This document shows positions 6,465 through 62,400 of a stretch of DNA of 64,000 bases, one piece after another. Every line of letters starts with the position of its first letter. Positions within the stretch are counted from its first letter, which is position 1. The stretch spans positions 4,254,438-4,318,437 of the forward strand of contig JARUPZ010000021.1 of assembly GCA_031213475.1 (NCBI GenBank), in the 5' to 3' direction. A model generated the notes under the pieces. The model was not told the origin of the DNA. It saw nothing but the letters and a program-made list of their open reading frames with translations, and did no database searches. The position numbers were made by a program, and so were the translations under genes. The stretch comes from Nereocystis luetkeana. Its lineage: Eukaryota; Sar; Phaeophyceae; Laminariales; Laminariaceae.

Positions 6465-6700
6465 GAGGGGGAGGGGGGGTACTCAATATCAGGCATGGCC
6501 GTAGTCCGTAGTCGTATGACCATAGACCCTCGCATCCCTACTGCCGGGACGGAGCATATCGGCTTTTTCACCGACCAGGCAGACAGTGCTTGCACCAAGC
6601 GCGAAGCGAAACTTGAGGTGTTGGGCGAGTCGCATGAAGCGCGAGCTGCACCCTACTAAAAACCGCTTTTGAGACGGACTTACACGTGGATGACAGCTTC
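6465..6700 (-). repeat. Family B poly(C)-tailed dispersed repeat, full-length copy
   Basis: Family B (sense strand) starts near GCTGTCATCC and passes AAGCGGTTC, TAGTAGGATGCAGCTCACC, GTCGGTGAAAACCCGAC, GCTCCGTCCCGGCATTGTAG and GGATGCGAGGGTCTATGGTC. It ends GCCATGCATGATATCGAGTA plus a poly(C) run. Here it is on the minus strand, so the tail is seen as G at about 6465-6479. All landmarks are present. Confidence 0.8.
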
Positions 6701-6862
6701 CAATAAGATAACTTGTTTTCCGGTGTGGTTCTCTTCCAGGACAGAGGGGGTGGATCATTGGATGGACGGGTGAACGGATGGATGTAACGATGGGTGTATG
6801 GCTGGATACATGTACGGATCGATCAGTGCATGCTGTTGTCGGGTTTTTTCGGTCCATTGCAG

Positions 6863-6934
6863 GATGGCGAGCGCGGGGTCGACGACGGGACGCCTCCGAG
6901 GCTGGAGGCCTGGCAGCAGCTTCGGCAAGGCGGG
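6863..6934 (+). CDS. Candidate exon (sulfotransferase stem region?)
   Basis: A T-rich tract ends in CAG at 6862 and a GTATGG donor follows 6934. The 72 bases between read DGERGVDDGTPPRLEAWQQL plus RQGG in phase 0, the phase used by most introns of the downstream sulfotransferase gene. No domain is recognised; membership in that gene is inference. Confidence 0.25.
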
Positions 6935-7379: not shown

Positions 7380-7670
7380 CTCTTGTCTCGTTCCATTGCT
7401 GTCTCTTGTCTGTCTGTCTGTCTGTCTCTCTGTATTGTTGTTGCTGATGGTGGTGTCGGTGGTTGATGCTGGTATTGTTGTTGCTGATGGTGATGTCGGT
7501 GGTTGATGCTGGTATTGTTGGTGATGGTGTTGGTGGTTGATGCTGGTGTTGGTGGTGTTGGTGGTGGTGGTGTTGGTGGTGTTGGTGGTGGTGTGGGTGG
7601 TGTTGGTGGTGTTGGTGATTGTGTGTTGTTGGTGGTGGTGGTGGTGGTGGTGGTGGCGGTGAGTGTTGGT
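7380..7670 (+). repeat. TCTG run followed by GGTGTT/GTTGAT minisatellite
   Basis: (TCTG)n at about 7405-7430 runs into GT-rich units such as GGTGTTGGTGGT and TTGATGCTGGT. The open frames across it are simple-sequence artefacts. Confidence 0.9.
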
Positions 7671-7804
7671 GTCGTTCTCGTTGCTATTATCATCGTTGTC
7701 TTCGTTCTGTTTCTTGTTCTCGCCATCGTCTCGCGCGCATGTTGGACCGTATCGTGGTTCGTCGGGGTGCTGTGCTGTCTCGGCGTCACACGTTTTTCCC
7801 GTGC

Positions 7805-8060: not shown

Positions 8061-8155
8061 CTACTTCGCCATACCGCCCTTGCCCCGCCTCTGCTTCCGC
8101 ATCCACCTCGCCCTCATCTCGCGCGCACCTGCTCGTGCTCCGCGACGCGACGAAG

Positions 8156-8594: not shown

Positions 8595-10581
8595 GTACGC
8601 AGGGGCTGGTCTTCGGTCGTCAGTGGACGCTGCGCATTCTCGTGTGTCTGTCGCTCCCTTTTGTTGCTGACCGCTGCTCTTTCTTGTCGGTGCCCGAAAC
8701 TATGCTACCGACCGCACCTCGAGCTATATGGAATATAGACCGCGCCACCCATTGCATCTACTGGCTCATTTTTAATTTTTTTTGCTGTTGTTGTTGTTGT
8801 TGCAGTTACCTCCCATTTTCTGAACCTCAAGGTCTCGCCTCGCTTCTCCCTCCCTCCTCCATACCCTTCTCCCCTCCCCCCTTTCCCTCCTCCCTCCTCC
8901 CCCTCCCCCCCTTTTCCCTCCTCCCTCCTCCCCCTCCCCCCTATTTCCTGTCTCCCGCCACACCCTCTTGGCTGGGCGCTCGATGGTGACTTCCCAGCTT
9001 GCATCCTTTGGAGGACCACATGTGTCGGCTATTCCACTAGAAGAGGCTGTTGAGCAGGCGAGTTTTTTCTTTGCTTTTTGCTTTTGAATGTGGCCCACGC
9101 TTATTGTCGCCCTCGAGGAAGAACACGGGCGGCAGGGGCGGGGGGGGGGGGGGGGGGGGGGGGGCGGGGGGCGGGGGGGTACTCGATGTCATGCATGGCC
9201 GTAGTCGTATGACCACAGACCCTCGCATCCATGCAGTGCCGGGACGGAGCATGTCGGGTTTTCACCGACCAGGCAGACATTGCTTGCTTGCACCGAGCGC
9301 GAAGCGAAAAGGTGAGGTGAGGTGTTGGGCGAGTCGCATGAAGGGTGGGCTGCATCCTACTAAATTCCGCCTCTGAGGCGGACTTGCATATGGATGACAG
9401 CTTCGGTTGAATTGATGGGGGGGGGGGGGGGGAGGGGGGGGTGACTCGATAGGCGAGATGTACTCGATGGGGGGGGGGGGGGGGGGGGAGAAGGGAAGGG
9501 AGGGGGGGAGGAAGGAGTGTGGAGCGAGGAAGAGGAGGGAGAGTGGGGTGGGGGGGGGGGGGGGGGTACTCGATACCGTGCATGGCCGGAGGGGGGGGGG
9601 GGGAGGGGGGAGAGGAGGGAAGGGGGGGAAGGGGGGGGGGGGGGGGTATTTCTAGCCTCGAGCCTTCGTTATTGTGGCAGTTGAGAACGTCCTGCAGATT
9701 TGATGGAACTGGGGGGAAGCTGGGGGTCTCGACCGCCGATCGGCTTGCCTGCTGGAGTGTCGACCATTTGGTATCGTCCGTCGGCCGAGCCCGCGGAGGA
9801 ATCGGCCATAAACCCGTTTTCCGTCCCCCTACCCTGGAAAGCATGAATGGAAAGCACAGGCCGTCTTACGCGCGCGCTTATACGCCGAAGACCTTCCCCC
9901 CCCCCCCCCCCCAGCCTACCCCCGAACACCCCTCTTGCCCCCCCCCCGGATGCGAGGGTCTATGGTCATAAGACTACGGCCATGCATGAGATCGAATATA
10001 TCTCTCCTATCGAGTACACCCCCCCCCCCACACCCCCCCCCCCCCCCCCCCGCCCCTTTTTTACTCCCCCTCCACTCCGTCTCGAAAGGGATACGTGGTC
10101 AATAGCCAATTCACTAATGCAAGCAACAAATGAGTACCCTACGCCTAGATCAACTCCAACCCCCCCCCCCGGGTGGGCACGGGCGGCGAAACGGGAAGGA
10201 GATGAGATGAGATACGTAAGGTAAAAGTGTCTCATGTAGTTTATGGAAAATACGTAATGAGCACCCCATGTGATGTGCTGCAGGTGTCGTCTTTTTTACT
10301 CTTACGGCTGTTTTATTACGGGGGACCTAGAGTAACCCAGGACCAACAAATTCTTATTACGGGGGACCATAGTATATAGGCCGAATGTTGTTCGTAAAAT
10401 AGGGAATGTATACCTGGTAGGTTTTTTGTGTGTACCGTGGGTCATGTTTACTATGCCCCCCCCGTAATAGTAAACATACTGGAAATTATGGGACCTGATT
10501 TCTGTGGCCTCCACAAAAGGGGGTATCATGGCTATGCGGGGCCAATGGTCGAATGACTAAGGAGAGCATCAATGAGACCCT

Positions 10582-10612
<31 letters not shown>

Positions 10613-13600
10613 AAAAAAAAAAACGACATGCTGCGTCCCGGCATTGTAGGGCTACGGCCATGCATGAGATCGAGCACATCTCTCCTATCGAGTACACCCC
10701 CCCCCCCCCCCCCCACCCGTTTTTCTCGTGGTTCAAGGTATGTCCGCTAGGTCGGTGAAAACCCGACGTTCTCGGTCGCTGGATTGTATATAGGGATGCG
10801 AGGGTCTAAGGTCATGCGACTGCGGCCATGCATGACATGAGTACACGCCCTCCCCCCACCCCCCATCCCCCGTGAGCATACGACCACGGCCATACATGAG
10901 ACGGGTACATATCTCCCATCAAGTACCCCCCCCCCCCCCCCTCCCCCTAAACCCCCCCCCCCGCCTCCCCCCGGCCAACATTGGTGTCAGGTTCACGCGA
11001 GTGGCCAACGCGTTGACGTGATGCACTATCACTACACCATCTCGGGGACGTTCCAAGGACGCTGGGAGGAGGCGACGTCCAGTTACAGGCAGATCATGCA
11101 GGATGGGAGAGGATAAGCTACGTCACCGTCGTCCGGAACCACCGGGAGCACTTCTTGAGCTACTACTACTACTTTGTCAGCCGGAGGTTCAGGTGGGGGG
11201 GAGGGGGGGGGGGGGGGGGTACCCGGTAGGAGAGATGTACTCGATCTCATGCATGGCCGTAGTCGTATGACCGTAGACCCTCGCATCCGGCGCATGTCGG
11301 GTTTTCACCGACCGGGCAGACATTGCTTGCACCAAGCGCGAAGCGCCTTGAGGTGTCCGGCGAGTCGTATGGAGGGTGAGCTGCATCCTACTAAGAACCG
11401 CTTTAGAGGCGGATTTTCTTGCATGTGGATGACAGCATCAATGAATTGGTTTAATTTCTGGGGTGGACACTGGGGGGGAGGGGGGAGGGTGGGGGCTGGC
11501 GGGCGGGAGGGGGGGTGAGGAGGTGGAGCAGGAGAGGCGACGGGGGTGGGTGGGTGGGTGGGTGGGTGTGGAAGGAAGCGGAGCATGCACTCGATATCAT
11601 GCATGGCCGTAGTTGTATGACCATCGAACGGGGAAGGGGGAGGGGGGGTGGAGGGGGGCGGAGAGGGAGGAGCGGAGGAGGTGGGTGATTGGAGAGTGGA
11701 GGAGTTGGAGGGGGGGGAGCGGGGGGGGGGGGGGGGGCAGGGCGTACACATTTTTTGCTTGTCTTGGTAATTTGACCATTGACCCCGCATCCCGTTCGAG
11801 TGGAGATGGGGGGGGGGGATGGATAAGTGGGTTCAGGCGAGGCGGGGGGGCGGAGGGGGGGCGACGGGTGAAGGAGATAAGGGTTGTGTGGAAAGGAAGA
11901 GAGCCGGGGCGAGCAAGGAGGAGAGGGGGGTGCAGGCGGCGTGGTAGCGTTCTGAGGGTCCCTCGCGTGTTGGGAAAAAAAAACGTTCATCGTCTTGTTA
12001 AAAGCTCCCGACACTGCCCCACCCCCGCCCCCGCCGGAGGCACTTTGCGCGACTCGAACACTACTCCGAACGGTAATATAGGCTCCGTTTGATGTTCATA
12101 TTTGGGCACCAAACGGTGTTTATATTCCCGGTCAAAGTGGTACACGGTAAGAATTTCGGGGGACCATAGTTAATAGGACCTGTGGTGTACTTAAAAACCT
12201 ACATATTTAACCATTTCTACCAACAATATTTGGTCCTATTAACTATGCCCCCCCGTGAGTAGTTCGTCCTCCCCTCCTTCTCCACAGCTGGAACGGGTCC
12301 GGATAGTCTTTCTGATGGATGCCCTCTGTTTCCGTGTCGGGACTTGCGTCGGGACTACGACGGCGCGGAAGGAGGGTTGGGATGCACCGCACGATAGAGG
12401 GTGCAACTAAATCATTCCTGAGGCTCCCTTGTTTTGATTAGGAGCTCTGCACTATTTGTAAAGTCGCCCTAAACCCGCCTGAGAAACAACGGATGATTTT
12501 TACGGCCAACTTTTAGTAGTGGTCCCTCTGTAATGCCGGTTGGGTAGTGCCGATCGACCCACTCTTACGTGGTGCCGAGGTGGAATCGCTCGGCACACAT
12601 CGCGATTTCACGAGGTAGAGGGAAAGTGCGCGGAGGGGTCCCGGTTAATCGCTGCTGTTGTGTTATCGTGTCCGTATTTTTGGCACTGTAGAGGGACCGT
12701 CGCTATTTGCAGGTGCAGCCCCGTGGACAACGCCGCGGCTTTTTTGTCAGGCATCATAGAACACGCGATGCGAATGATATACCAGTGGCAGCGAGTAAGA
12801 GGAATGGTATCCCAGTGACATTGGGTAATGTTTCCTCGGTCGAGAAGCTCCGCCGGTAGCCCAAAGTCGCGGGGGGGTGGAAATAACGTGAAGAACGTTT
12901 TGAACCCGCACGCAGGGGTCGGTGGGTGCGCGATCGTTTTTTTCGCGAGCGATTGTTTTTTTTTTTTTTCACCAGAACGGGGGGGGGGGGGGGGGGGGGG
13001 AAGGAAGGTCGGTCGCCGGTACATACCGAGCAAAAGGTACGAAGGCGTTTTCGGAAATGGCTGCCTGGTCATGAGAGAGCCTGCTGACAACATAGTTTGT
13101 TCGGCTTTGTTGTAGAAGCGCCCTTCCTTGCCGGTCGTTTGATGTTTTAGAGAAAAACGAGCGCTGAAAAGAAGGGTCGCACCACTGCTGTGTGTGCACT
13201 CAACGCCCTTTACCCTTCCCGGTAGTTTTGGCCGAAAAATTGCCGCCCCCACCGTGGGGCACGCTCTTTCGCCGCAGAAGGCAAATGAAGGTACTCTAAG
13301 CACACCTCGAACAGATCATCGATTCGCACGGTGGGATCTATATGATCTGTAGAGCACATAGATTGGTGATCTGTGTGTAGCTCGTGTCTGTTATCATCTG
13401 CACGATCAAAGGTAGGACATGTTTCCTGGGTTGGATCTGTACTATGCAGATCCCGCACGTCCACCTCAGAACGGCAGGATAGGAGCTAGATTATATATCT
13501 GTAGATGATATATCTGTAGATGATATATCTGTTGATGTATCAGTAGATGATTTATCTGTAGATGCTGTATCTGTAGATGATGTATCTGTAGGTGGTGTAT

Positions 13601-16600
13601 GAGTAGATGATGTATATGTAGATGATCTCTCTGTAGATGATCCATCTGTATATGAAGTATCTTTAGATGATCTATCTGTAGATGAGCTATCTGTAGATGA
13701 TATATATCTGTAGATGGACTATCTTTAGATGAACTATCTTTAGATCTCTATCTGTAGAGGCTCTAGCTCTCTGACGTGTGAAAGTGCCTCTCTCTCCCTC
13801 TACCTCCCTCCCTCCCTTATCCTTCGTTACGTGGAAACCTCCGTGTTTGTGTGGGAAGCTCTCTGTGGCGCACTTCTTCCAGAGCAACCGGAAAGACAAG
13901 ACTTATCGGCTTCAACGAGAGCGTCTGAGTAATCCGCTATGCTCGGAGTTTGGCATCCGCACAGAGGAGGAGCTAGAACACTTTATCCAGGCGGAGCTCC
14001 CGGACTTTCGATTGGTGAGAGATGACTAACAACATCGACGGACTGAAATTATGACTTTCGATTGGTGAGAGATGACTAACAACATCAACGGACTGAAATT
14101 ATCAACGGATACATCACTCAAGGGATCAACCATTGGACGGGTAAAAAAAAAAATGACGGGTGAGGGAAGAGGCCGCGAACCCGCTCACCTGTCTTCTTTT
14201 TTTATTTTCGTTTTTATGCGGAAGAGGGGGATGGAGGGCAAGACCCGCTCGATACGATATATCGAAACGTTCGATAACATATGTATTAATAGGACTATTA
14301 CGGGAGACCATAGAAAAATAGGACCAAGTGTTGTTGGTAAAAAGAGGTGAATACATAGGTTTTTGTGTCTACCGGAGGTGCTATCTACTATGCCCCCCCC
14401 CCTAATAGTCGTAGGAGGTAGTCCTTCCCCCCCCCCCCCCCCCCCTCCTCTTATTGGGCGAAACATATCAACGGAAAAACGTCAACCGGAAGACAGGCAA
14501 CGGATAGAATTGTGCCGTATTAACGACCGAAAAAAACAACGGAATACAGTTATCAAGCGAGCGAAGAAACTCGACCGAAAAGAAAAAGGATAAAAAGGTC
14601 GATCAGTTGGTGGCTCTAGCGGTATAGTCATGTTCTACTTCTTAGTCGGCGTGGTGCCTTGCTGCCCTGTCTGCCATCACCTTCCTACTTTCGCCCACCG
14701 CAGTTTCCCTTCTACCCCTTCCTGTTCACCCCCCTCTCCGCATTCCCTTGGTCGGGTTTTCTGCCACTCTTCCTGTTGCCTCCCCCCCCCCCCCCCCCAT
14801 TCCCTTGGACATCACATACAAATAATATCGATACGTGCCTGATACCAACGGATGAAAGAGGAAACTCGTGATCGGTTGATGTCAACGAGCCGCAGAATTT
14901 CACGACCAAAACAAGCAATGAACGTTAGTACAACAGCGCTATTAATAGTACGAGAAAAAAAAAACCGATATCACAGTCTCTGGTAGTGGCCGCGCACCAG
15001 AAGATAGATTGACTCCTTGCAGCTGTCATCCGCATGCAGGTCCGCCTCACAAGCGGTTCGTAGTAGGATGCAGCTCACCCCTCATGCGACTCGCCAGACA
15101 CCTCACGGCGGGCGCTTCACGCTTGGTGCAAGCTAGCAATGTCTGCCTGGTCGGTGAGAACCCGACGTGCTCCGTCCCGGCATTGTAGGGATGCGAGGGT
15201 CTATGGTCATACGACTACGGTCATGCATGATATCGCGTACCCTCCTCCTCCCCCCCCCCCCTAAGTATACCTGATATGCAGAAACAGCTTGTCAGTGTGA
15301 ATTATATTTCTACTGCGACGCGGGGTAGTGGGGGGTTGGGGGTGGATGTGCTCAGGTTGTGTGGTGGACGGAGAAACGTGAGAGAGCAAGGGAGAGAGAG
15401 AGCAAAAGAGAGAGACCATAACAAAAAGTACAACACCGAAAACAGCAACATCAGTGTCAACAGCGGCAACAGCCGCCAGGCCACGCTACCACGTACAACA
15501 GAAAAACACGAAGCTAGAACAGCAGCGGGCAGCCACAACCACAAGCACCACCACACCGAACCACCACCCCAGGCACAGCCAGCGACAACAGCAGCGACAA
15601 CCACCGCTATATACAACAGAAAATAAGGAACACCAACAACAACGACCGAAAACGGAACCAAAAACGCCACCACAGCAACAACACCGCTCTACACCTACGA
15701 AAAAGAAAACGATAGCAGCAGCTGCTGTAGCGACAACGACCACATCAACAAGCCTTAAATCACAACAAACATCTACAATTTTAATTCAGCCATAGCGACA
15801 GCAACAACCCGAACGGATCGCAACAACGACCACAACAATAACAAACAGCAACAACAACCACAACCACAACCACAACCTACAGCAACAACCAACAGCAACA
15901 ACGACCACAACAACGACCAACAGCAACAACGAACCCAACAACAACCAACAGCAACCAACAACAACAACAACCACAACAATAACCGTTTCGTCGTGCCCTA
16001 CCCGTTTCACAGGTGATACTCACGGAGGCGTTCGACGAGGGGCTGATGGTGCTGAGACGCCTAATGGGCTGGGAAATGATCGACATGACCTACTCGCGCA
16101 TGATGGAAACCAAAGCCGGCTCGCGTCGCTGGGACGGGAAAGATCTGAAGAACGTTCCCCACTTTGACGACCTCAACCCGTCGGTGAGCGGCAGCGTTGG
16201 TGGAAGTATCAGTACAACACGCGTCGGAACAATGACGACCTGTACCGTAGTAGAACATCTGGTCATGCTTTTGGTCTCTTTTATGTGGCCCCCAATAGGA
16301 ATAAAAGAAGTTGTGTCCACCTCCACCGATCGGTTTAACCCCCCCCCCCCCCCGCACTATTTTACTGCCTCCTCGCAGATTCAAAAGGCCATCGACGATA
16401 ATACTTCCCTGGACGGGAGGCTGTACGCAGCCGCGTCGGTGTTGTACGAAGAGGTAGGGAGGCGCGTGCCACCAGCGCCCATTGGGGAGGGAAGAGGGAC
16501 GGAGGAGGGGTAGCGAGGGAGGGATGGGGGGGGGAGCGTACTCGTGTGTTGCTTGCCTTAGTCATTTGACCATTGACCACACACACACACCACTTTCGAG

Positions 16601-18552
16601 GCGGGGGAGGGGGGGGGGGGGGGGGATGGGGGGGGGGGGGGGGGGGGTACCTACAGACTGCTGTGTAAACGAAAACCCGGCTTCGACAAGAGGGTTGAAA
16701 TATAATTGACTTTTTCACGCGCTAGCCTTAGCCCTGACCCCGAAACCCAGTTATGATTTCGGCAGCGAATCAAGCAGTGTGGTACCCCGAGATCGTAGCG
16801 ACCGAAACAATGGTTGGTAGGTCTTGGTGTTCTCAGGCGCCCACGGGCAGCGCGAGTCAGCGCCCAGCAGCAGCGCGGGTAGAGTCGTAGGGCCATGTTG
16901 CTCCCCGTGCTGGGCGACTCCTTGCGTCAACCATGGTATTATCCCTCTTGAATCACGCGGTGGCCGCAACGGTTGCTGTATTACGCCACTTGTTTATCGT
17001 CGTAAGTTTCTTTTTTTCCCCATCTGGAGTGCTGAGAGGGCCAAGCGAGTTAAAAAAAGCCAGGGCAAGGTAGAGGGGGGGGAGGGGGGGGGGGGGGGCA
17101 CGTACTCATTTGTTGCTTGCCTTAGTCGTTTGACCATTGACCACGCATCCCTTTCGAGACGGACCACCGTTCCTACTCCTACTAGAGACACCTTCAACAG
17201 TTGGGCGCTCGTCACGTTTCCATATATTACATGAAAGCTTTTCGCTGATCTTACCCCCTTCCTGTTTCGCCGCATGTGGCTGAGGTAGAGGGGGGGGGGG
17301 GGGGGGTAGTTTCGGGGCTACGGTACGTATTTCTTCCTCGTCGCCTGAAGTCGCCTGGGGATGGGGTACAGTACCTGTGCACGTACGTACCACTTTATTT
17401 TCATTCCTGTTTGTTCTTCGCTCTATTACGGGGGACCATAGTTAATAGGACCTATGGTATACATAAAAACCTATATATTTAACCGTTTTTACTAACAATC
17501 TTTTGGTCCTATTAACTATGGTCCCCCGTAATAACATAAACTCTTTGTTTGTGGGGGCCGGGGGGGGGTGGGGGAAGGGAGCTCCCAACTTGTTTTTCAG
17601 AAAAAGTTTGTCAGTTTTGTATGGGGCGTAGAGCTTCTCATCTTTCGGAACCCCAAGAAAAACTATGTACCCCCAAAAGAAGGCTTGAAGCTTTTTTATG
17701 TAGAAGTCTAGTATTACTTGTTTCTAAAAGGTTGTTAAGAGTACCTGTCTCCCCCTCCCCCCTCCCTACCGTACCATAGTTCCCAACGGATATATTGAAA
17801 TGCTCGCCCCCTACCGTACCATGGTTCCGAACGGACATATTGAAACGCCCGCCCCCCACCGTACCATGGTTCCCAACGGACTTATGAATGAAAACGGTCT
17901 TGTCACGGCTGCTGTAGTTGTCAAATGGGCGGTGAAAAGTAAGCCAACTGTTCGATAACGGGCTTGCTACTTGTAGCGTTTTGGTCGATAGAAACACAAA
18001 ACCGAAAGAGCGACCACCGCCCCGGATCAAATCTGAATACACCAAGCGCGCGGGACTCTGCAGACACCTAGCCAATTAGTAACTACAGTAATACCCAGCC
18101 AACTGCGTAGTCGGTGGTTTATATTACGGGGGGCCATAGTTAATACCCTGGTAGGACCTATGGTCTACACGAAAACCTATATATTTACCTTTACTCACAA
18201 TATTTGGTCCTATTTACTATGGTCCCCCGTAATAGTAAGCCAACTACTACTATACGGGGGGACCATAGTTAACAGGACCTATGGTATACATAAAAAAAAA
18301 CTAGATGTTTAACCATTTTTACTAACAATATTTGGTCCTGTTAACTATGCCCCCCCCCCGTAATAGTGTGTACCGGTAGTCGGCGGCTTACGGTCAGTAA
18401 TCTGACAGCCCTGTTCGCTCGCTCGCTGGTGTCAGAGGAAGGCAGTCGTCGCTATCGAGATAGAGGAGGAGCTCGAGGAGTTCGAGAAGCTGCAGGCGGT
18501 CATGAACGGCTACCTACAGAAGAACAGCTCCAGCGAGGCCGTCAAATGGTGA
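8502..18552 (+). CDS. Gal-3-O-sulfotransferase-like gene (multi-exon; span of confirmed exons)
   Basis: Members transfer sulfate from PAPS to C3 of galactose in Golgi glycans. In brown algae homologues are candidates for sulfating wall polysaccharides such as fucoidan (inference). Exons: 8502-8594, 8998-9057, 10991-11192, 13883-14014, 16013-16183, 16379-16453, 18436-18552. Nearly all join in phase 0. Landmarks in order: VAFAKTHKTASTTLAMILVR (5'-phosphosulfate loop), MHYHYTISGTFQG, SYVTVVRNHREHFLSYYYYF (3'-phosphate region), NPLCSEFGIRTEEEL, VILTEAFDEGLMVLRRLMGW, then DGRLYAAASVLYEE, and a charged C-terminus ending EAVKW and TGA at 18550. Oddities: an apparent 2-bp insertion near 11111 stops exon 3; its donor phase (2) does not fit exon 13883, so a small exon may be missing or the donor is GTCAGC at 11174. 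The N-terminal anchor is not certain. It may be a functional gene with a sequence error or a recent pseudogene. Confidence 0.85.
8998..9057 (+). CDS. Sulfotransferase short exon with GC donor
   Basis: 20 codons LASFGGPHVSAIPLEEAVEQ between TTCCCAG and CAG|GCGAGT. Phase 0 on both sides fits the neighbours exactly. No GT donor is available that keeps the frame, so a GC-AG intron is inferred. Confidence 0.6.
9136..9404 (-). repeat. Family B repeat, full-length copy with ~45-base G tract
   Basis: All family landmarks are present. The tail appears as a very long G run at about 9135-9178 with single C or A interruptions. The copy lies in the intron after the GC-donor exon. Confidence 0.85.
9412..9650 (+). 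repeat. Cluster of G-rich tracts
   Basis: Repeated G runs of 8-25 bases separated by TACTCGATA-like or GGAAGG spacers. These look like stacked, mostly tail-only Family B fragments. Confidence 0.7.
9949..10052 (+). repeat. Family B repeat, 5'-truncated
   Basis: Begins at GGATGCGAGGGTCTATGGTC and ends with TCTCTCCTATCGAGTAC followed by C runs. Only the tail-proximal part is retained. Confidence 0.8.
10074..10140 (+). repeat. Family C poly(C)-end repeat
   Basis: Family C consensus (sense strand): CGTCTCGAAAGGGATGCGTG, GTCAATGGTCAAATGACTAA, GCAAGCAACAAATGAGTACG, then C. Here the sense copy ends ATGAGTACCC without a long run. Confidence 0.75.
10313..10471. mobile_element. Family A element nested beside a second left end
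   Basis: Two left ends (ATTACGGGGGACC at about 10316 and 10363) precede a single right end (GCCCCCCCCGTAATAG). A younger copy seems to have landed in or next to an older one. Confidence 0.7.
10625..10717 (+). repeat. Family B repeat, 5'-truncated
   Basis: Starts at GACATGCTGCGTCCCGGCAT directly after an A run and ends TCCTATCGAGTAC plus about 20 C. Confidence 0.8.
10744..10940 (+). repeat. Two further truncated Family B copies in tandem
   Basis: The first begins TAGGTCGGTGAAAACCCGAC and ends GAGTACACGCCC. The second (about 10873) begins GTGAGCATACGACCACGG and ends ATCAAGTACCCCCC. Confidence 0.7.
10991..11192 (+). CDS. Sulfotransferase exon with apparent frameshift
   Basis: Frame 1 reads VHASGQRVDVMHYHYTISGT ... 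SSYRQIMQDGRG and stops at TAA 11114-11116. The family match resumes in a shifted frame with ISYVTVVRNHREHFLSYYYY. Removing two bases of GGGAGAGGATAAG at about 11107-11113 restores a continuous match (..QDGR-ISYV..). The exon ends CAG|GTGGGG in phase 2, or earlier at TTT|GTCAGC in phase 0. Homopolymer-rich flanks make a sequencing error possible. Confidence 0.75.
11195..11436 (-). repeat. Family B repeat, full-length copy
   Basis: The G tract at 11195-11219 abuts the splice donor of the sulfotransferase exon ending at 11192. The copy runs to GCATGTGGATGACAGC. Confidence 0.85.
11450..11730 (+). repeat. G-rich tracts with a tail-end fragment of Family B
   Basis: Long purine-only stretches (GGGGGAGG, GGGTGGGTGGGT) surround a short TACTCGATATCATGCATGG fragment at about 11588-11625. 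No gene. Confidence 0.6.
11721..11805 (-). repeat. Family C repeat
   Basis: A G tract, then GTACACATTTTTTGCTTG, TTTGACCATTGACCCCGCAT and CCGTTCGAG. Diverged copy. Confidence 0.7.
12150..12258. mobile_element. Family A element
   Basis: Ends are TTCGGGGGACCATAGTTAAT and TTAACTATGCCCCCCCGTGA, with core CCAACAATATTTGGTCC. Confidence 0.8.
12259..13299. other. Intron stretch without a recognised exon
   Basis: Sequence between the sulfotransferase exons at 11192 and 13883. A small exon with phases 2 to 0 may be hidden here, but I could not identify one. A G tract lies at 12979-13000. Confidence 0.4.
13300..13460 (-). repeat. Family E GATC-rich repeat
   Basis: Contains GATCTATATGATCTGTAG, ACATGTTTCCTGGGTTGGAT and CTGTACTATGCAGATC, the complement of the family core. 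Confidence 0.6.
13490..13765 (+). repeat. 15-bp minisatellite
   Basis: About 18 diverged copies of ATCTGTAGATGATNT. It ends about 110 bases before the sulfotransferase exon at 13883. Confidence 0.9.
13883..14014 (+). CDS. Sulfotransferase exon (NPLCSEFGI segment)
   Basis: 44 codons from AGC after TTCCAG to TTG before GTGAGA, phase 0. It includes LSNPLCSEFGIRTEEELEHF and ELPDFRL, the conserved segment before the FDE motif. The last 12 exon bases plus donor are duplicated 50 bases downstream. Confidence 0.85.
14003..14102 (+). repeat. 50-bp direct duplication across a splice donor
   Basis: Copies start at 14003 and 14053 and differ at one base. Each contains GACTTTCGATTG|GTGAGAGA, i.e. the exon end and the donor. 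An in-frame TAA between them means only the first donor can be used. Confidence 0.9.
14292..14409. mobile_element. Family A element
   Basis: Left end TATTACGGGAGACCATAG. Right end CTACTATGCCCCCCCCCTAA, slightly diverged. Confidence 0.75.
15022..15261 (+). repeat. Family B repeat, full-length copy in sense orientation
   Basis: The best sense copy. It runs from GCTGTCATCCGCATGCAGG through AAGCGGTTCGTAGTAGG, GGTCGGTGAGAACCCGAC and CCGTCCCGGCATTGTAGG to TATCGCGTACCC and a C run. Confidence 0.85.
15420..15990 (+). repeat. CAA/ACC-rich simple sequence
   Basis: About 550 bases of A/C-rich triplets (CAACAA, ACCACA) with almost no T. It ends just before the sulfotransferase exon at 16013. Confidence 0.85.
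16013..16183 (+). CDS. Sulfotransferase exon (TEAFDEGLVLL segment)
   Basis: 57 codons between CACAG and GTGAGC, phase 0. It reads VILTEAFDEGLMVLRRLMGW and continues to NVPHFDDLNPS. This matches the family segment in which a Glu-x-Phe-Asp-Glu precedes a Leu-rich helix and a Trp. Confidence 0.9.
16379..16453 (+). CDS. Sulfotransferase exon (LDGRLYAAA helix)
   Basis: 25 codons IQKAIDDNTSLDGRLYAAAS then VLYEE between TCGCAG and GTAGGG, phase 0. It corresponds to the 'N..D..LY..a' helix near the C-terminus of the family. Confidence 0.85.
16527..16604 (-). repeat. Family C repeat
   Basis: GTACTCGTGTGTTGCTTGCC, then TTTGACCATTGACC, with an AC microsatellite inserted, then TTTCGAGGCGGG. Long G tracts follow at 16602-16647. 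Confidence 0.8.
17078..17163 (-). repeat. Family C repeat, typical copy
   Basis: G tract, CACGTACTCATTTGTTGCTT, TTTGACCATTGACCACGCAT, CCCTTTCGAGACGGAC. The tail is on the left as G. Confidence 0.85.
17424..17533. mobile_element. Family A element, intact
   Basis: Perfect ends TATTACGGGGGACCATAG and CTATGGTCCCCCGTAATA over 110 bases. Confidence 0.9.
17763..17880 (+). repeat. Short tandem repeat, ~50-bp unit
   Basis: Three copies of CCCCCTACCGTACCATGGTT followed by CC(C/G)AACGGA(C/T)ATATTGAAA. No function seen. Confidence 0.8.
18122..18235. mobile_element. Family A element
   Basis: Intact ends, with a small insertion (CCTGG) in the left arm after TTAATA. Confidence 0.85.
18251..18366. mobile_element. 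Family A element, 15 bases from the previous copy
   Basis: Ends TATACGGGGGGACCATAG and CCCCCCCCCGTAATAG. It carries the variant GTTAACAGG. Confidence 0.85.
18436..18552 (+). CDS. Sulfotransferase terminal exon
   Basis: It starts after GTGTCAG and reads RKAVVAIEIEEELEEFEKLQ, then AVMNGYLQKNSSSEAVKW and TGA. The acidic helix followed by a Ser-rich end is plausible as the C-terminus. Phase 0 matches the previous exon. Confidence 0.7.
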   Translation, partial: RKAVVAIEIEEELEEFEKLQAVMNGYLQKNSSSEAVKW

Positions 18553-21588: not shown

Positions 21589-21790
21589 GGGGGGGGGGAG
21601 GGGAGGGTACTCGTTGTCGTGCATGGCCGTAGTCGTATGTATGACCATAGACCCTCGGCCTCCCTACAGTGCCGGGACGGAGCACGTCGGGTTTTCACCG
21701 ACGAGGCAGACATTGCTAGCTTGCACCAAGCGCGAAGCGAAACGTGAGGTGTTGGGCGAGTCGCTTGAAGGATGAGCTGTATGCATCCTG
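21589..21790 (-). repeat. Family B repeat, slightly 5'-truncated
   Basis: The tail is seen as G at 21590-21606. The body runs to GAGCTG and a partly duplicated ATGCATCC. Confidence 0.8.
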
Positions 21791-23215: not shown

Positions 23216-23965
23216 CTCTACCTGGTACACCGCAACGCAGTTCCCCCAGACTCTCCAAAAACTGAAGCAGGCAGAGAACAGTATGTGCGTATTTTACCGT
23301 TGGGGGGGGTGGGGGGGGGGGGGTGCTCTTTATCATGCATATCCGTAGTCGTGTGACCGGCGCGGGGGGGTGGGGGGGGGGGGGGGGAGGGCAAGCGCGC
23401 GCTAGAAAGGATCGCAACTTGACACGATGTCTGATCATACATGATAATGAACAAGGATATGAACCGGTATAAAATAAGGAGTATCTGGTATAAGGTGGGT
23501 GTATTCGTAGATCTTCATACTGCAGTCCAATACGATGAAATATAATAAAATGAGGAATAATGATATTCAAAATTGCTCCTCGCGTCAGAACTGAAACGGA
23601 TTTGACGCTGACAAAAGCGATAAGCGAGACCTCCGTTACCCCCCTGATGCCCACCGATCCCCCCCTCTTTCCCCTATCCCCGGGTTTCCAGGTATTCGGG
23701 CAGCGTACAACCATACTTGGGGGGCCCACCCTTCCATCCGTTTTGACCCCGGACTCGAAACGCCTCCAAATCGCTCCTGTGGAATTTTTTCGGCGTCTTG
23801 GCGTTGGGTGAAAACCAGTCGGTTGAGTAAAAGGGTCGGTATGAAGCATGACACGAGTAAGGGCAGGGGTGGAATCGATTTCGTGCAATATATACATATA
23901 TATATTGGAGGGGGAGGGGTGTGTTCTCGAAATCATGCATGGCGGTAGTCGTAAGGCGGGGCGGG

Positions 23966-24056
23966 GGGCGGGGGGAGGGGGGGGGGGGGGGGCATACTCA
24001 TATGTTGCTCGGCTATGTCAGTTGACCACTGACCACGCATCCCTTTCGAGACGGGG
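23966..24056 (-). repeat. Family C repeat
   Basis: G tract, GCATACTCATATGTTGCTCG, GTTGACCACTGACCACGCAT, CCCTTTCGAGACGGGG. Confidence 0.8.
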
Positions 24057-24227
24057 CGTGGAAAAGGGCTGTGATCGCGCTCACGTACATAACGCGCGCA
24101 AGACAATACCCCTCCTTCTGCTGGGTTGACTTTCCGACCCGTTTTTTTCTTCCTCTTTTTTCCCCCGAAATAGGGGGGGGGCAAACACAGGGGAGATGTT
24201 GGCAATATATAGTTATCTCCGTCTTAT

Positions 24228-24776: not shown

Positions 24777-24778
<2 letters not shown>

Positions 24779-24810
<32 letters not shown>

Positions 24811-24870
24811 ACTCGTTGTCATGTATGACCATAGACCTTCACATCCCTATAATGCCGGGACGGAGCACGA
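24779..24870 (-). repeat. Family B repeat, strongly 5'-truncated, long tail
   Basis: About 30 G, then TACTCGTTGTCATGTATGACC and AATGCCGGGACGGAGCACG, where the match stops. More G tracts follow to 24963. Confidence 0.8.
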
Positions 24871-25809: not shown

Positions 25810-25921
25810 TGGGGTGTACTCATGTCATGCATGGCCGTACGTAATCGTATGACCATAGACCCTTTGCATCCCGACAATGCCGGGACAGAGCAGGTCGGGT
25901 TTTCACCAACCTGGCAGGCGT
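25810..25921 (-). repeat. Family B repeat, 5'-truncated
   Basis: GTGTACTCATGTCATGCATGG to TTTTCACCAACCTGGCAGGC. The tail is a mixed G/T-G run rather than pure G. Confidence 0.75.
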
Positions 25922-25939
25922 TGGAGTGAAGGGGGATGG

Positions 25940-43300: not shown

Positions 43301-45100
43301 CTACCAGGCAATGCTTCGTTTTTTTTTTGTGCGTTCTTCTCCGCACTAAAAGTCCAAATCTCCACGCCGCATTTTCAGATGATCAACCCGTGACTTTTTT
43401 TGCAGGCGTGTTTTTGCTCACCTTCTTCTTAAGGGACTGGCCTGGGTTTTTGGTTTTTTCTTTCGCCGAAAACGTTTGGTCTAATGGTCTCTCTCGCCGC
43501 TATGGAGGGTCATGCAAAGCCTGCCGATATGGCGTCCACTGGTGCCCCCTTCTGACGGTTGGGGGGAGCCGGCAGTCCGCTCGTCCTCCGGTGGACGAAT
43601 CTGGGTTGCGGGCATCGTTTTCCCCCGTTTTTTTGTTGCATGAATGTTGTTTTAGTTAACCCTGTGTGTCAAAAGTTTTTCTGCCGGCGACTACATCGGG
43701 CACCGGCATTGTACGAGTAGTAGAGGGACCCCCTGCTTTCCTACACGGTATAAAGTGCAGCAAACCTATCCTGCAGAGCGACTGGTGCGGTCTATTATAA
43801 ACCCTCTATTTCGGGGGGGACCATATTAAATAGGACCTACGGGAGACACAAAAACCTATCTGTTTCCCTATGTTTTTCTCACAATGTTTGGTCCTATTTA
43901 CTGTGGCTCCCCGTAACAGGAAGAGCATGTGCAGCACTTGCGGTAGTTTGAGTGCGACAGTACGGCGCAACTCCTCGTTCTGCGCGCGTGTCGCGTCTGT
44001 GTCTCTTTCCGTTTTTGCGCATGCGTAGCATCCCCTGTTTTACCCCAGCTCAACCCGGCTTCGCTACGAATATGTACGTCACATACGTTTGTACTCGGGC
44101 ACGAGTACTAGTATTGTACACAGGACAACTATTATCACGGGGGGCCATAGTAAATAGGACCTACGGCAAAGACAAAAACCTATATATTTACCTTTTTTTA
44201 CTGACAATATTTGGTCCTATTAACTATGGTCCCCCGTAATAGTAAGGAAGCAACCGGAAAGAAAAGGAAGGCTGAGGCTTGCAGGAAGATGAGAAAATTC
44301 GGGAGTCGTTGTACCGAAGCTTTGTTGTACTTTTGTGTACCTGGTACTGTAGAACGCACCTTCATCAAATAAGAATCCAGCCTGGGTCACCTTCCTTGTT
44401 TCGTGTTGGGTTGTCCTGTCCTGCCGCCGTATCGTCTCTTTGTTTCGGCGCTTTTTTTCCTCCTGTGCTACAATCAAGTAAAATAAGCCCCTGAGGGGTG
44501 AAATATACCTGGTACCTGGTATATAGACCACTCTTCTCGTACGGTAGTTCTACGTGTAGCACTTGTCTCCTGTGTATAAATATGGGTGCTTTTGGTGCTG
44601 AGGCCCCCTATCCTGCCGGAAAACACATTCTACATTAGTTCCAAGAGGGTTTTCCCCCAAAGCTGGGGCGCAGTTGTAAAAGTGGCCAATTTCGTGGTTG
44701 ACCGGGGCAAGTGCACAGACCCTTTGAACAGTTTTTTTTTTCGCGGTTTTAGATCTTCCCATTCCCCCGCGCATCCCCCCCCCCCCCCCCCCCCCCCCCG
44801 CGCCGCTGCTCTCCCTTTCGTGGAAACCTTCGGACCCTCAACATACCCCCAACGCCCTGGATGCAGCGAGGTACGCTCTCGTCAACAGTGTTTATGTTCT
44901 GCACCCTCCGCCCCCCCCCCCCCCCCCCCCGCCCCCCCCCACCCACCCCGTCGGCCCTCTACATACAATAAAACACGAAGCGCGAGTTCTCAAAGACATT
45001 TTTTTAATCATATCAAATCCCCGCCGACGTGCTCCGTCCCGACATTGTAGGGATGCGAGGGTCTATGGTCATACGACTACGACCATGCATAACAATGATT

Positions 45101-45142
<42 letters not shown>

Positions 45143-48100
45143 TTTCCCTCCCCCTCCCTACCCCCGCCACCTCCTTTCTTGGAAACCCTTTACAGTGTAC
45201 CCTGGACGCAGCGAAGTACGCCCTGAACAACGCAGGCGCGCCCCTCGCCACCATCGCGAGCTCGAAAAAGTTGAAGAGGTCCCGCCCTAGCTCCGACGCG
45301 AGCAACGGAAAGGTGGACGCTAATGGAAGGGAGAAGAAGAGGAGGGAGGAGAGGTCGCTGATGGTGCACCGATTGCCCGCGGGTACGACGCTCGAGCAGC
45401 TGTCGAGGGTTATGCAGAAGAAGACTCACGTCGTCGCGATTGAGGTGGAGCCCATCTACTTTTCCGGGAGCACTGGGAAGACTCAGGTAGCTAGCTGCAC
45501 CTGATAAATTATGAATATATATATAGATGAACGAGGGTGGGTTTGGTAGGTCGTGTAGGCTGGGGATACCCGGGTATCTACTCGAATATGATCTACGCAT
45601 CCAGGTCTGATACCCGGGTATGTACCCCAGAGTGTATTCATTCCCTTTCGAAGCACACCCGAGTATGCATGGTACCGGGTAGGGGTCAAGATTTGATACT
45701 TTCTTTTTGTTTGTTTTCAGCGCTGACGATATCCGACATATCGGCGAATCCGTCGTGCAGTGCGTGAATCCTTGTTTTGAATTGGTTGTTTGACGATAGA
45801 TGTGGGTGATATCATCACTTTTTTTTAGTCGTGCAAATCGGGATTATGCGCTTTGCCGATATGTTGCCGATTTTTTTGGCGGGTATCGATTCCGATTTTG
45901 AATCTCTCCGATTAAATTGGGTGAATCGGCTCCGATCGCCGATGCTCCGATTTACACCCTACTGTTACACTCGGAGTACTTTCATTACGTTGTCTGACAC
46001 CAGGTATGTTTGAGGTCTGACAGCTCGGTGGATGGTGGGCGTGAAAGCACGCTCGAGCCTGTTCACTATTTGCTGACAGCCGCCACCACCTCCACCCTTT
46101 CATCTCTCGAGTTTGCTTAACGAAAAGCACTCCCCGCCCGCCTGCACGCCTCCGTCTCTCGAAAATGGACGCGTAGTCAGCGGTGAAATGACTGAGGCAA
46201 GCGACAAATGAGTACACCCCCCCCCCCCCCAACCTCGCCCCGCCCTCGCACGAGGTGCCGAAGTCCGCCTCACAAACGATTTTTAGCAGGATGCAGCTAG
46301 CCATTCATGTGACTCTCGCCGAGCACCTTACGGTCTGCTTCGCGCGCTTGGCGCGAGCAATGTCTGCCTGGTCGATGAAAGCCCGACGTGCTCCGCACTG
46401 GTATTATGCAGATGCGAGGAGGGTCTAAGGTCACACGACAGCGGCCATGCATTACAGGAGTACCCCCCCCCCCCGCCCCGCTCCCAGGCTTTTTGTGATA
46501 TATGGAAAAAAACGTGGTGAGGCATCTCTAGATTAGGAGACTAGGAGCAGGGACGGTGCTCCATCTTAAAAGGGATGCGTGGTCAATGGTCCATTGACTA
46601 AGGCAAGCATTACATATGTACGCCCTCCCCCCCTCCTCCCCCTATCCTGTCTCCGCAGGTAGTCTACGCGTCGAGGGCTCAGGCAGACATCGCGTTCAAC
46701 GGCATCTCGACCTCAGCCCACGAGGACGCGTCCGGGAGGTTGGAGAAGAAAATTTTCATCTCCGGAGACGGCCAGAAGTATATCAAGGTGGGCTTTCCCT
46801 TTTTTCTTATTTTTTTTTTGGGTAGTGGTCCCTTTATGGTTCGGGTTGAGTAACCGCCGGTGTGCTCGCTGTATGCAGTGCCGGTTGCCGCTACAGAGCC
46901 CGGTACATATTGGCTGTATTTGCTTTTAGTGGGGGGGGAGAGGGGGAGGGGGGGGGGGGGGGGACTCTCATCTCTGAACACCGTCTTACCGTAGGTGTTG
47001 AGATTACCGGAAAGAGCTCTCTGATTTCTCACGGGAGGTGCGATCATTTTTCAGCGGTGCTTGAAAGTCTTGATATAATATTCCAGGTATTATATATATA
47101 GTATATGGTATATCCATAACATTTTTTTTTTTCTTCATTTTTTTCGGAAAAGCTCTCGATCAGATATTTCCCGGAAATAAATAACACCATCAGGTTGTAG
47201 TTCGGTAAACGGCAACCTTAACCTTCCCGTTCTGGAATAAAAAATCGGGAGCCGATAAACGATCCCCCCCCCCCCCGATAATCGCGATCTCAGCGGTATT
47301 TTCGGGTACCCCCTGTTGACGACTTCATCAGAGGTGGAAAGAGACCTTTTCGATGAAAAATTACGGTTACAGCACGATGAGGATGTGGTGCCTTACGGAC
47401 TACGTTTTCGAGTTATACGATGCAAGGGGTCGTACGGCGCGGACGCGACGTGAATCCTGACACCCCTTTTTAGCTGCTGGACGCTCACGACGCCTGTGTA
47501 TGTAGGTAGGGATGGGGCAGGTTTGGTTATCACCAGAATTTACCACTGTTCCGGTTGTTACGTCGGGTATGGCGGCACTTGTTGCACTGCTGTCGTAGGG
47601 TTAGCACTCTTCGGCCACAAATGTCTCTGGGACTGACCGAGCTCCCGAACTCTTTTATTGTGGGTGGGGGGCATATTATATACCAGGTAGGACCTACGGT
47701 ACACACAAAAACCTAAATATTTCGCAATTTTTACAATTTTACGGGGACCATAGTAAATAGGACCAAATATTGTTAGTAAAAATAGCGAAATGTGTAGGTT
47801 TTTGTGTGCACCGTAGGTCCTATTCAATATGCTCCCCCGTGGTGCCGTAGTAAATAGGACCAAATATTATTAGTAAAAATAGCTAAATATATACCTCGTA
47901 TGTTTTTTATGGGTGCCGTAGGTCCTATTTACTACGGTCCCCCCTAATAATAATATTTGGCCCTATGAGTTTTGACTAGGGTCCCCCGTAATAGTATATA
48001 GCTGCAGTCCGTTTGGGCGACAGACCTCTCAAAAATTCTAAGTACGAAGTTCGTTCCGAAAAGGGAACCGCGATACTACTTTACGGGCGGCCATAGTAAA

Positions 48101-49341: not shown

Positions 49342-49441
49342 NNNNNNNNNNNNNNNNNNNNNNNNNNNNNNNNNNNNNNNNNNNNNNNNNNNNNNNNNNN
49401 NNNNNNNNNNNNNNNNNNNNNNNNNNNNNNNNNNNNNNNNN
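49342..49441. other. Assembly gap (100 N)
   Basis: Exactly 100 N between two G-rich sequences. The true length is unknown; polymer-rich DNA probably broke the assembly. Confidence 0.98.
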
Positions 49442-49442: not shown

Positions 49443-49522
49443 GGGGGGGGGGGGGGGGGGGGGCGTACTCATGTGTGAAATGCCCTTTATCATTTGACCG
49501 TTGACCATCCCTTTCGAGGCGG
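49443..49522 (-). repeat. Family C repeat next to the gap
   Basis: G tract, GTACTCATGTGTGAAATGCC, ATTTGACCGTTGACC, ATCCCTTTCGAGGCGG. Confidence 0.75.
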
Positions 49523-49734
49523 AGGGGGGGAGGGGTGTTCTCATGTCATGTATGGTCGTAGTCGTATGACCTTATAGATCCTCGCATCCCTGTGTACAAT
49601 GCCGGACGAAACTCGTCGGTTTTAACCGACCGGGCAGGGATTGCTTGCACCAAGCGCGAGGCGCCGTGAGGTGTTCGGATAGAGTCGCGGGAAGGTTGAG
49701 CAGCTTCGTCCTACAAAGAACCGCTTGTTTAGAG
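49523..49734 (-). repeat. Family B repeat, diverged
   Basis: GTTCTCATGTCATGTATGG, GTCGTATGACC, AATGCCGGACG, CGTCGGTTTTAACCGACCGG, GAACCGCTTG. Confidence 0.75.
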
Positions 49735-56345: not shown

Positions 56346-56409
56346 GCTGTGCTGCTGCTGCTGCTCGCTGTGCTGCTGCTGCTGCTCGCTGTGCTGCTGC
56401 TGCTCGCTG

Positions 56410-56442
<33 letters not shown>

Positions 56443-59400: not shown

Positions 59401-62400
59401 AAAGGACAGGGGGGTACACGTTCTTTTTTTCTCTCATTTGCGACACACGCATTTTGAACAGCCTTGGTCACTAGCTGGCTATGCCAGCCATCGCAGATAC
59501 AAAATAGTTGCGCGAGGCGTTTCGCGGGGTTCCGCGTCTTTGTATGCGTATGCACGAGCGGTTCGTCCGAGGCAACAGTGGTGCGGTAGTAGTGATCCCT
59601 CTATAGTGCCGGCTGAGTACTAATAGTGCCGGGTGCCCACACTTAAGAGCACCAGTGAAACAGTCTGTCACAGATGGGATTAACCGGTGTGGTAGGGTGC
59701 GGAGCGGCGCCGGTGTTGCTGACACCCGTACATGTATCGGCCCTACAGAGGGAATCGTTATTACTGTATCACTCTCTGGCCAAAGCCTTTCTGACTGATG
59801 GGCTCCGAGGCTGAGGCACTGCCCAATAAGCCACGGGCTATCGTTGGGATCACATCCATTTTTTACAATATCCGGAGGATTTTTCGTCGGACTAAGGGCG
59901 TGTCTTAACCCCCTCCAGAGAGCATTGGAACGAGCCGAATGAAATATTGTTTGCCACAGGAGTTGGTGCTGAGTTAGTTACGGGAAACGAATAGATTTTC
60001 GTGCAGCCCGAGAAAAACAGCAGTACCAGGTATTTAAGGGAAGAGGAAGAAGAAGTGTCGCACCTGTAACCTGTAACGCCTTTTCTTGTTTGGGGGGACC
60101 GAACGGCCCGACCGAACGGGAACAAACAGCATCCCGTTTGATGTAGATGGACACCACCGAAGAGGGACGAGGACACCATTTCGCGCACAACAGCGTTTGG
60201 GTTGTCGTGACATGTGCAAAATTTACCGTTCTTACTGATACGGCTGGCGAGGCCCAGGATTCTGCGTGGACCCAAACACGATTTTGTGCTTTGGGAACGG
60301 AACGAATGACCACGAGCAGCCTAGTTCCGTTCCGCTCGCTCCCCTGCTCTTCCAAGGGAGTTAAGACACGCCCTAAGACTCATGCTGCAATAGAAACGCA
60401 CTTCCCCCCCCCCCCGAAGAAGCTCCCCGTTTGAGGAACTCGTAGGATGTTGTTCCCTACACGTTTTCTTTTTTTCCCCGATACGATTTGAGCTTAATCA
60501 GCCAATCGCAGACGTGCGCTTCTCAGAATGAGTCCACGTGCTCTCCGAGAGGTACGCAGATAAAAAGATATGTTTCTCCGCCGGTGCAGTGATCGCAAAA
60601 AAAATCTGAATTACCCCCGAATCCAAAAACAGACCTATTTTCGGATGCGAGGGTACTAAAAATCTGAATTACCTCCGAATCCAAAAACAGACCTATTTTC
60701 GGATGCGAAGGACAGCTTCAGAATTTTTTTTCGTCAGATTATGCACCGTGGTCAAAAACTCGAACTACGCCTCTGGAGAAGCGAATTTCTAAGCTGGGCA
60801 CCCCTCGGGGAGACTCTGGCTTCGTTGCGATAAGTGTATGGCTGCTTCCCTCAGTCTATCGGGCAAAAACGAGCATACAGCGTCAGAAAAGTCGACATCA
60901 AATCGAAAAAACAAAAAAAAACCCGCATACTCGCACGCAGGAAACAACCTTATAGGCTCACCCAAAAAAACTGACGTGAAAAAGAAAAATCAAAGCGCAC
61001 TGGTTGATGAATAATATCATGGCCGAGGCATGCGAAGAAATATTTTTGCAAAAACAAGAACGGAATCCTGACGATTTCGGGTCACAAGAAGCACCGTCAT
61101 TCAGAACCTATTTTTTAGCCAAAACTACATGGTAGCACGCGTCTTACTGTAAGTGTACCTGATGCCATTCAATAGTATTCGGGGGTGAGGTATGTCGAGC
61201 TCCTTGACCCATTTAGGACCGCAGTCCCGTTTTGGGGACAAAACTACTTGAACTTCGAGTGGTCTGTTCCCAAAACGGGACTGCGGCTCTAAAAGGGTTG
61301 ACCCCCTTTGGAGCTTTCACGGAAGAAACAAAAAAAATACCAGGGTGCGTCCGAAAAAAACATATATGTTATTTCAGCAAATGGCCACTCACTGCACGTT
61401 TTGGGAGACGATGATACAAGTTGGTGTCCGAACTTTTCGGAACGCAAGGAGTCGTGCGGAACACGGGGCGCAACGTTTATCCTGCTACCACTCTGTCCCG
61501 AAATATAATGACCGTTGGGTTAAAAAATTAGTGCAACACCAGTTGTCATAAAAAGGGACAGAGTGGTAACTCGCACTGTCGGGCCCTCGCGCACGCTGAT
61601 CGTGGAAGGTTGATAGCACCTCTAGAGTTTCCAACCATTGCTTCGATCGCTATTCCTTGAAATGAGCCCCACGCGGCGGGGGGTAAGCGAGGAGCCTGTC
61701 AGAAGAGGACACGTGCACACCTACCTACCCCGGCATGCCAAAAAAATAGGGACCCCTTTCGAGATGGTTGAAGCTACCGACCGACCGACCGACCGACCGA
61801 CCGACCGACCGACCGACCGACCGACCCACCGACCCACCGACCGGGAACCACCAGCCGACCGGGAACCACCAACGCACGCAAGCTGGCGACAGTTACTACC
61901 ATCCTGCCGCGCGAGATTTTAGCTTTAGCTAAGCATTAAAATAATGGGGGGGAAGAAACAGCTGTGATGGGAGATCGAAATCGACAGGGTACAACCATTC
62001 TGCTGCGCGAGTTTCTACTGTAGCTACTTTACAATGAAACGATGGGGTGGTGGTGGTGGTGGGGGGGGGGGGTGTACTCGATAGGAGAGATATACTCGAT
62101 CTCATGCATGGCTGTAGTCGTATGACCATAGACCCTCGCATCCCTACAATGCCGGGACGGAGCATGTCGGGTTTTCACCGACCAGGCAGATGGGGAGTGT
62201 GGGGGGCATTCGCTGTGACGGTAGATCGAGGACGTCGTCCAGACTCGTCTTTGCAACCTGCGTGTAATATACTTCGATCGCGCGTATATGCTACAGACGG
62301 GGTTTCATATGACCTTACGAGGGATACGCATTCATTCCTTGTTGAGGGTAGCATATTCCGTACATACACTCATCTTGGTATAAATACAAACGACGTGTGG

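Follow-up and report, generated by a model that had tools for sequence, protein, structure and literature searches.

The window analysed here, a 64-kb (64,000-nucleotide) stretch of the Nereocystis luetkeana genome, contains 22 chains of a dispersed repeat, family B (nine on the + strand and 13 on the − strand); a related family, A, contributes 10. A sequence-only reading of the window had described about 20 copies of B in both orientations, which agrees with our count, and had given six points at which copies are cut at their 5' end (42512, 45024, 10625, 9949, 24870 and 62191); all six are confirmed by the ends we detected (42513, 45024, 10618, 9948, 24867 and 62190, respectively), the largest difference being 7 bases. 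All B copies of the window are truncated. The longest (40180..40565, − strand) matches positions 105–496 of the B consensus, and the youngest-looking (62074..62190, − strand) matches the consensus at 98% in its best aligned piece and ends in GAGTACA plus C12. Other copies on the − strand are found at 6479..6726 (5'-truncated; its 5' end was shifted 18 nt outward by extension), 9179..9404 (5'-truncated; its tail includes G25, C25 in the sense direction, at 9140–9164), 11219..11464 (G17 tail, 11203–11219), 21607..21782 (no C-run in the preceding 25 nt), 25815..25923, 41873..41982 (following a C15 run at 41985–41999) and 49529..49728. Short B 3' fragments are present on the same strand at 9444..9468 (very short, flanked by C-tracts), 11585..11627 (C-rich surroundings) and 23922..23953 (after an A copy with a C-rich tail). 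The aligned part of the − strand copy at 24778..24867 covers 24823–24867 (consensus 426–470), and its shortened end, CATGACAACGAGTAC, leads into a C32 tail at 24778–24809.

On the + strand, the B copy at 9948..10017 has a C10 run immediately before it and is followed head to tail by an A 3' fragment (10075..10129). Next come a weak A match (10172..10269, consensus 1498–1585) that stops short of the 3' end, an A 3' fragment without a preceding C-run (10534..10572), and the B copies at 10618..10695 (C18 tail, 10697–10714) and 10729..10926 (two 3' fragments in one chain; C16 tail, 10926–10941). A head-to-tail cluster of three B copies comprises 42313..42483 (C25 tail, 42483–42507), 42513..42588, which is inserted behind that tail in the same orientation, and 42615..42691. 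The B copy at 46261..46452 comes after an A 3' fragment at 46150..46207, and another A 3' fragment lies at 46542..46609. The + strand also contains B copies at 14995..15240, with no preceding C-run, and at 45024..45142 (aligned part 45024–45090). The A 3' fragments of the − strand are those at 11752..11800 (following a C11 run; its flanks match over 8 nt), 16547..16583 (C20 and C17 runs upstream), 17110..17280, 24003..24057 and 49484..49524 (adjoining a B copy, directly behind its C-rich end). The fragment at 17110..17280 has a 15-nt target-site duplication, CCCCCCCCTCTACCT; the duplicated target begins at the C17 run (17290..17306, − strand) on its 5' side.

The window contains the sequence GAGTACCCCC six times; 100 shuffles gave 0.08 on average, and none reached six. 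In the 465-Mb assembly (1,987 contigs), the light-harvesting family PF00504 has 68 matches, one of which is most similar to the PDB chain FCP17 (9ygv, E 6.5e-119), with other fucoxanthin chlorophyll a/c proteins far behind; these proteins mark an alga with antennae of the fucoxanthin type and, together with the genome size, make a brown alga probable. Genome-wide counts were made on this assembly: the 14-base end GAGTACCCCCCCCC occurs 5,968 times (2992 + 2976), compared with 33 (21 + 12) for the control read backwards, and a 25-nt B start, allowing up to 2 mismatches, occurs 5,621 times, compared with 0 for its control. The dispersed repeat with the GAGTAC–poly(C) end is confirmed as real. For the ends of the copies we used the window and a set of loci around GAGTAC+C8 sites on contig C1, selected among the first 100 listed of the 5,968 and taken in part from the + strand; three loci (L003, L009 and L010) overlapped others and were dropped before counting, leaving 45. 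Tail length is biased in these loci because they were chosen by GAGTAC+C8, but the window was not so chosen. In total, 155 chains were obtained from the window and the 45 loci (118 B and 37 A). Leaving out the chains cut by a locus edge, the 3' end is intact in 103 of 112 B chains and in 33 of 37 A chains; the earlier statement that every copy keeps the GAGTA–poly(C) end is therefore nearly, though not wholly, correct for B. The 5' ends are BLAST borders, uncertain by some bases (re-extension shifted 2 of 127): in 21 of 115 B chains the start lies no more than 15 nt from that of the full-length element, and the remaining 94 starts are scattered along it. Truncation is thus one-ended, on the 5' side, with a fixed 3' end, which is what target-primed reverse transcription predicts. 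The B consensus, built from 11 copies, has a full length of 516 nt plus the tail, not the body of about 235 bp proposed from the window; the B end is located at consensus position 498, or at 516 where the end is duplicated.

Comparison of 48 upstream regions revealed a shared sequence of more than 1,380 nt in five loci (L004, L017, L020, L024 and L042), ending in ...AGCAACAAATGAGTAC. All five shared regions translate as a reverse transcriptase (RT) followed, by eye, by a cysteine–histidine motif, at which the Pfam search found no family; the stop codon starts six bases ahead of the element's own poly(C). The element, LINE A, has a length of about 5.9 kb, its longest copy being C1:12076858-12082729 (5,872 nt). 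An RT domain (PF00078, 1.4e-18) is found in the copy in L024, and an APE endonuclease domain (PF03372, 9.8e-6, 25.9 bits with a cut-off of 24.5) in the copy L079/L020, while PF14529 remained below its own cut-off. Relatives of the RT in the PDB are R2 (1.8e-12) and L1 ORF2p (5e-8). The frames are broken in all three LINE A copies (three 7-kb stretches were examined). Upstream of the frame, the 5' part of L079/L020 contains tandem units of about 120 bp; such units resemble the promoter monomers of some LINEs. The A 3' end AGCAACAAATGAGTAC has 3,301 exact matches genome-wide against 36 near-exact A 5' ends, so long copies are either rare or have diverged beyond the pattern. Judged by these sequence features, family A is an APE-type LINE with an RT, an upstream endonuclease, 5' truncation and a constant 3' end. 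A LINE sharing the GAGTAC–poly(C) end had been suggested as something to look for, and family A has that end together with both enzymatic domains.

A second family with RVT_1 matches was rejected as a partner of B: none of 30 loci has GAGTA+C4 within 1.5 kb on either side of its RT match. This second LINE family (L049–L078) has an RT and a weak endonuclease match, contains many frames of about 1,250 codons and looks recent; it fills the 150 best RVT_1 matches, most with identical scores (150 of 4,777 candidates scored).

Families A and B are similar at both ends. At the 3' end, B matches A over 54 nt at 74–78% (the local score of 40 compares with a maximum of 26 in 1,000 shuffles), and omitting the final 10 bases leaves a score of 38, against 26 in shuffles. 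Near the 5' end, the two match over 39 nt at 87%. This 5' block is the start of LINE A in the reference copy L085 and in all five other loci (six of the 36 were examined), and the LINE A similarity continues for at least 103 nt past the block, in L087 after a jump within the tandem units. Based on the two shared blocks, B consists of LINE-like ends around an unassigned core. The earlier reading had called B a SINE; a Pol III SINE is not supported. The Pol III A-/B-box pattern is found in none of 22 full-length B copies, no tRNA is found in the B consensus, and Rfam gave no family in the window at gathering score; in three loci containing full-length copies, nothing credible lay within B below that score either (most of the weak hits there are to miRNA models in tracts rich in C/G, and every one is far under its gathering score). 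Also, 19 of the 22 full-length copies contain a T-run of at least 5 at 60–150 nt, and a T-run is expected to stop Pol III. No HDV-like ribozyme was found in the shared 5' block of B or A, a negative which proves little as the crude descriptor also hits shuffled sequences (13 of 20). The structure that alifold gives for 21 B starts is weak (−8.7 kcal/mol). Terminal inverted repeats (TIRs), whose presence had been named as the sign of a DNA transposon, are seen in neither family: comparing the first 40 nt with the reverse complement of the last 40 nt gives a score of 4 for both B and A, with shuffle medians of 5 and 5. Reading B as a DNA transposon or MITE was rejected on the lack of TIRs and the one-ended truncation. 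B thus appears to be a LINE-derived non-autonomous element and not a proven SINE.

Both A and B end in GAGTAC, often plus one base, and then poly(C). Genome-wide, 2,537 of the 3,301 A 3' ends are followed by NCCCC and none by NAAAA; in the window, 28 of 30 copies have a C-run of at least 5 within 45 nt on the 3' side. C tails had been thought to explain most homopolymer tracts of the window. Of its 91 C/G runs of at least 8, however, 29 follow the 3' end of a detected A or B copy at a distance of up to 60 nt, a lower bound since very short copies escape detection; in all of these the sense strand carries C, and runs with sense G near A/B 3' ends number 0. The other 62 lie away from detected copies, so C-tracts have other sources too. 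These 62, together with the C-runs which flank most copies on both sides, favour an explanation in which poly(C) is the target only: the elements would stop at GAGTAC, their RNA would lack the C's, and they would enter pre-existing C-tracts. Long C tails behind copies with no 5' C-run are difficult to place there: the copy at 45024 is preceded only by CCCC and followed by the longest C-run found (41 bases, 45102–45142). Similarly, the 3' side of L002 carries 18 further C's ahead of its copy of the flank match CCCTACACC. Both point to a tail that is carried or has slipped, and we regard the target-only explanation as unlikely.

C-runs are also common before the 5' ends, so poly(C) is favoured as a place of insertion in addition to forming the tail. 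In 129 copies, the 25-nt stretch ahead of the 5' end is 52% C and holds a C-run of at least 5 in 67% of cases; 5,000 positions drawn at random from the same loci, outside copies, give 27% and 7.9%. G-runs show the opposite trend (0.8% before 5' ends vs 3.7% at random places). With re-extended 5' ends, 85 of 127 copies have such a C-run, compared with 9 of 126 at 200 nt further up (Fisher p 1e-24). The proportion is 21 of 30 in the window copies alone, whose tails are unselected, and by family it is 18 of 25 for A and 67 of 102 for B. All six LINE A 5' ends examined (including the reference L085) have a C-run before them, and three of these runs are, by eye, B tails. The preference is not strict, as 42 of 127 copies lack a C-run of at least 5 within 25 nt upstream of their 5' end, and the sequence in which the LINE copy in L080/L024 begins has none. 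Insertion of A and B into one kind of repeat is therefore far above chance, at about two thirds of copies, but not exclusive.

The reverse explanation is that poly(C) is a tail only, with insertion showing no sequence preference and the C-rich stretches on the 5' side arising from nesting or from C-rich neighbourhoods. Old tails are indeed plentiful as landing ground and some of the preceding C-runs belong to an older copy (a C-run is present in 38 of 50 cases with another copy within 120 nt upstream), but 46 of the 76 copies without such a neighbour still have a C-run, and the C-runs have largely disappeared 200 nt further up. The effect is also strand-specific: at a fixed position of the border, 1,124 of 2,591 B starts genome-wide have CCCC and 0 have GGGG. 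Close neighbours also share their strand without exception (45 of 45 pairs within 50 nt and 55 of 55 within 80 nt, then 70 of 75 within 300 nt and 87 of 97 within 1,000 nt). A tail-only explanation is for these reasons quite improbable. That poly(C) is both tail and target is the most likely reading, with the C-runs on the 5' side indicating the target, and the C41 tract and the additional C's at L002 indicating the tail.

Neighbours within clusters are often unlike in family and in truncation point; around L017, a LINE A piece is found 12 nt after the C-rich end of another LINE A piece. One local tandem duplication is present in a B cluster (L002:1748-2142), where a nearly identical 62-nt linker occurs twice, behind two copies of similar extent. 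It is the kind of event expected if clusters arose by tandem duplication or by exchange at C-tracts, a view we group with that of B as a DNA transposon, but the differences between cluster neighbours, the one-ended truncation and the TIR scores make this very improbable and disfavoured as a general cause.

Target-site duplications (TSDs), the search for which had been proposed, gave a mixed picture: there are a few clear cases and no clear overall excess. Readable TSDs are those of L024 (22 nt), of the window copy at 17110–17280 (15 nt) and of L002 (9 nt), and all begin with C's; the priming strand would then have G's at its end, which is required for it to pair with a C tail. A TSD score of at least 10 is reached by 13 of 113 copies, with 8.0 expected, and a score of at least 14 by 0, with 1.86 expected. 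Exact matches at the 5' border number 8 at 6 nt (8.0 expected), 3 at 9 nt (0.79 expected) and 2 at 12 nt (0.16 expected). These tests, to which duplications of C's alone are invisible, replaced a first one, in which 3 of 74 copies had at least 8 nt against 3.3 expected.

Target-primed reverse transcription, proposed earlier for B, is supported by the 5' truncation, the fixed 3' end with its C tail, the lack of TIRs and the LINE partner. We consider it likely that B, about 516 nt long, is a non-autonomous retroposon mobilised by the proteins of the 5.9-kb APE-type LINE A through priming at C/G tracts. Starting from the ends that A and B share, their one-ended truncation and C tails, the C-runs on the 5' side and the head-to-tail clusters on one strand, we infer the remaining steps as follows. 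The LINE endonuclease would nick the G strand of a C/G tract, and the freed G-run would pair with the poly(C) end of an A or B RNA and prime reverse transcription, which would often halt early. The C tail would be carried on the RNA, transcribed from a source copy that itself lies within a C-tract, and may lengthen by slippage. As insertions leave C's behind their 3' end, old tails would become landing sites for new copies. Tail, primer and target may in this way be one C/G homopolymer, and A and B a self-seeding LINE and its parasite, which spread poly(C) and build one-way nested clusters; we see the chances of this extended model as evenly balanced.

Pairs of a LINE and a short dependent element are known from other organisms. 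The non-autonomous element RTEX-N1_Ec32 of Ectocarpus is about 600 bp long, has more than 6,000 copies, and its 3' end is conserved with that of the autonomous RTE-X LINEs RTEX-1/2_Ec32; that study does not decide whether it is a SINE, since the origin of its 5' part had not been established (PMC12477816). Compared by description only, it resembles B in being short and non-autonomous with a 3' end shared with a LINE, and B/A and RTEX-N1_Ec32/RTE-X may be pairs of the same kind. They differ in that neither poly(C) nor insertion into C-tracts appears in the passages covered for RTEX-N1_Ec32, and in that the 5' block of B is traced to a LINE. In trypanosomatids, SIDER/RIME share the 5'-terminal block of the LINE ingi-L1Tc, which in trypanosomes contains a promoter and an HDV-like ribozyme (PMC4035085, PMC4748587, PMC8190864). 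As in B, the part in common with the LINE includes a 5' block and not the 3' end alone; unlike them, B has no HDV-like fold by the crude descriptor, and its tail and target are different. Stringent SINE/LINE pairs of green algae include SINEX/RandI and SINEX-3/L1-1_CR, in which, as in B/A, the 3' sequence of the partner LINE and the same simple repeat form the end of the short element (PMC3747384). The green-algal 3' repeats in the passages covered are (A)n, (ATT)n, (CTTT)n, (CTATTT)n, (CA)n, (CAA)n, (CATA)n, (TAA)n, (CCAT)n, (ACAATG)n and (CTTGTAA)n, and (C)n is not among them (PMC3747384). B also differs from the SINEX pairs in having no recognised tRNA part.

Among repeat-targeted LINEs are TRAS/SART and Waldo, and Zepp nests in its own copies. 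HERO families and Togen, the latter at (TG)n, are LINEs which insert into simple repeats (PMC4640811). HERO and Togen belong with the LINEs of the RLE type (PMC4640811), whereas family A is of the APE type and its target is a C homopolymer, with a loose preference (about two thirds of copies). In the literature covered, the 3' repeats of LINEs are poly(A) or short microsatellites; no poly(C)-tailed LINE or SINE was among the literature matches listed, which does not by itself establish its absence from print. We judge the mechanism class of the A/B pair as ordinary and its tail and target as unusual. If correct, a poly(C) tail combined with targeting of C-tracts would be a case of tail, primer and target as one homopolymer, and would account for part of the C/G tracts of the genome. 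B also offers a candidate answer to the question of the 5' origin of short LINE-dependent elements in brown algae (cf. PMC12477816), and the pairing of tail and target is directly testable in the A/B system.

Other repeats and tracts are also present in the window. A repeat with ...TATG–C-run–GTAATAG and GGGGGACCATAGT parts has an internal C-run and is found at 10440–10480, 12240–12260, 14380–14410 and 18340–18370; by eye, it is unrelated to A or B. The only N's of the window (100, at 49342–49441) lie directly behind a C21 tract (49443–49463), and C-tracts may therefore break the assembly. Long trinucleotide stretches, TACTACTAC and GGTGGTGTT, are found at 6180–6340 and 7440–7680.
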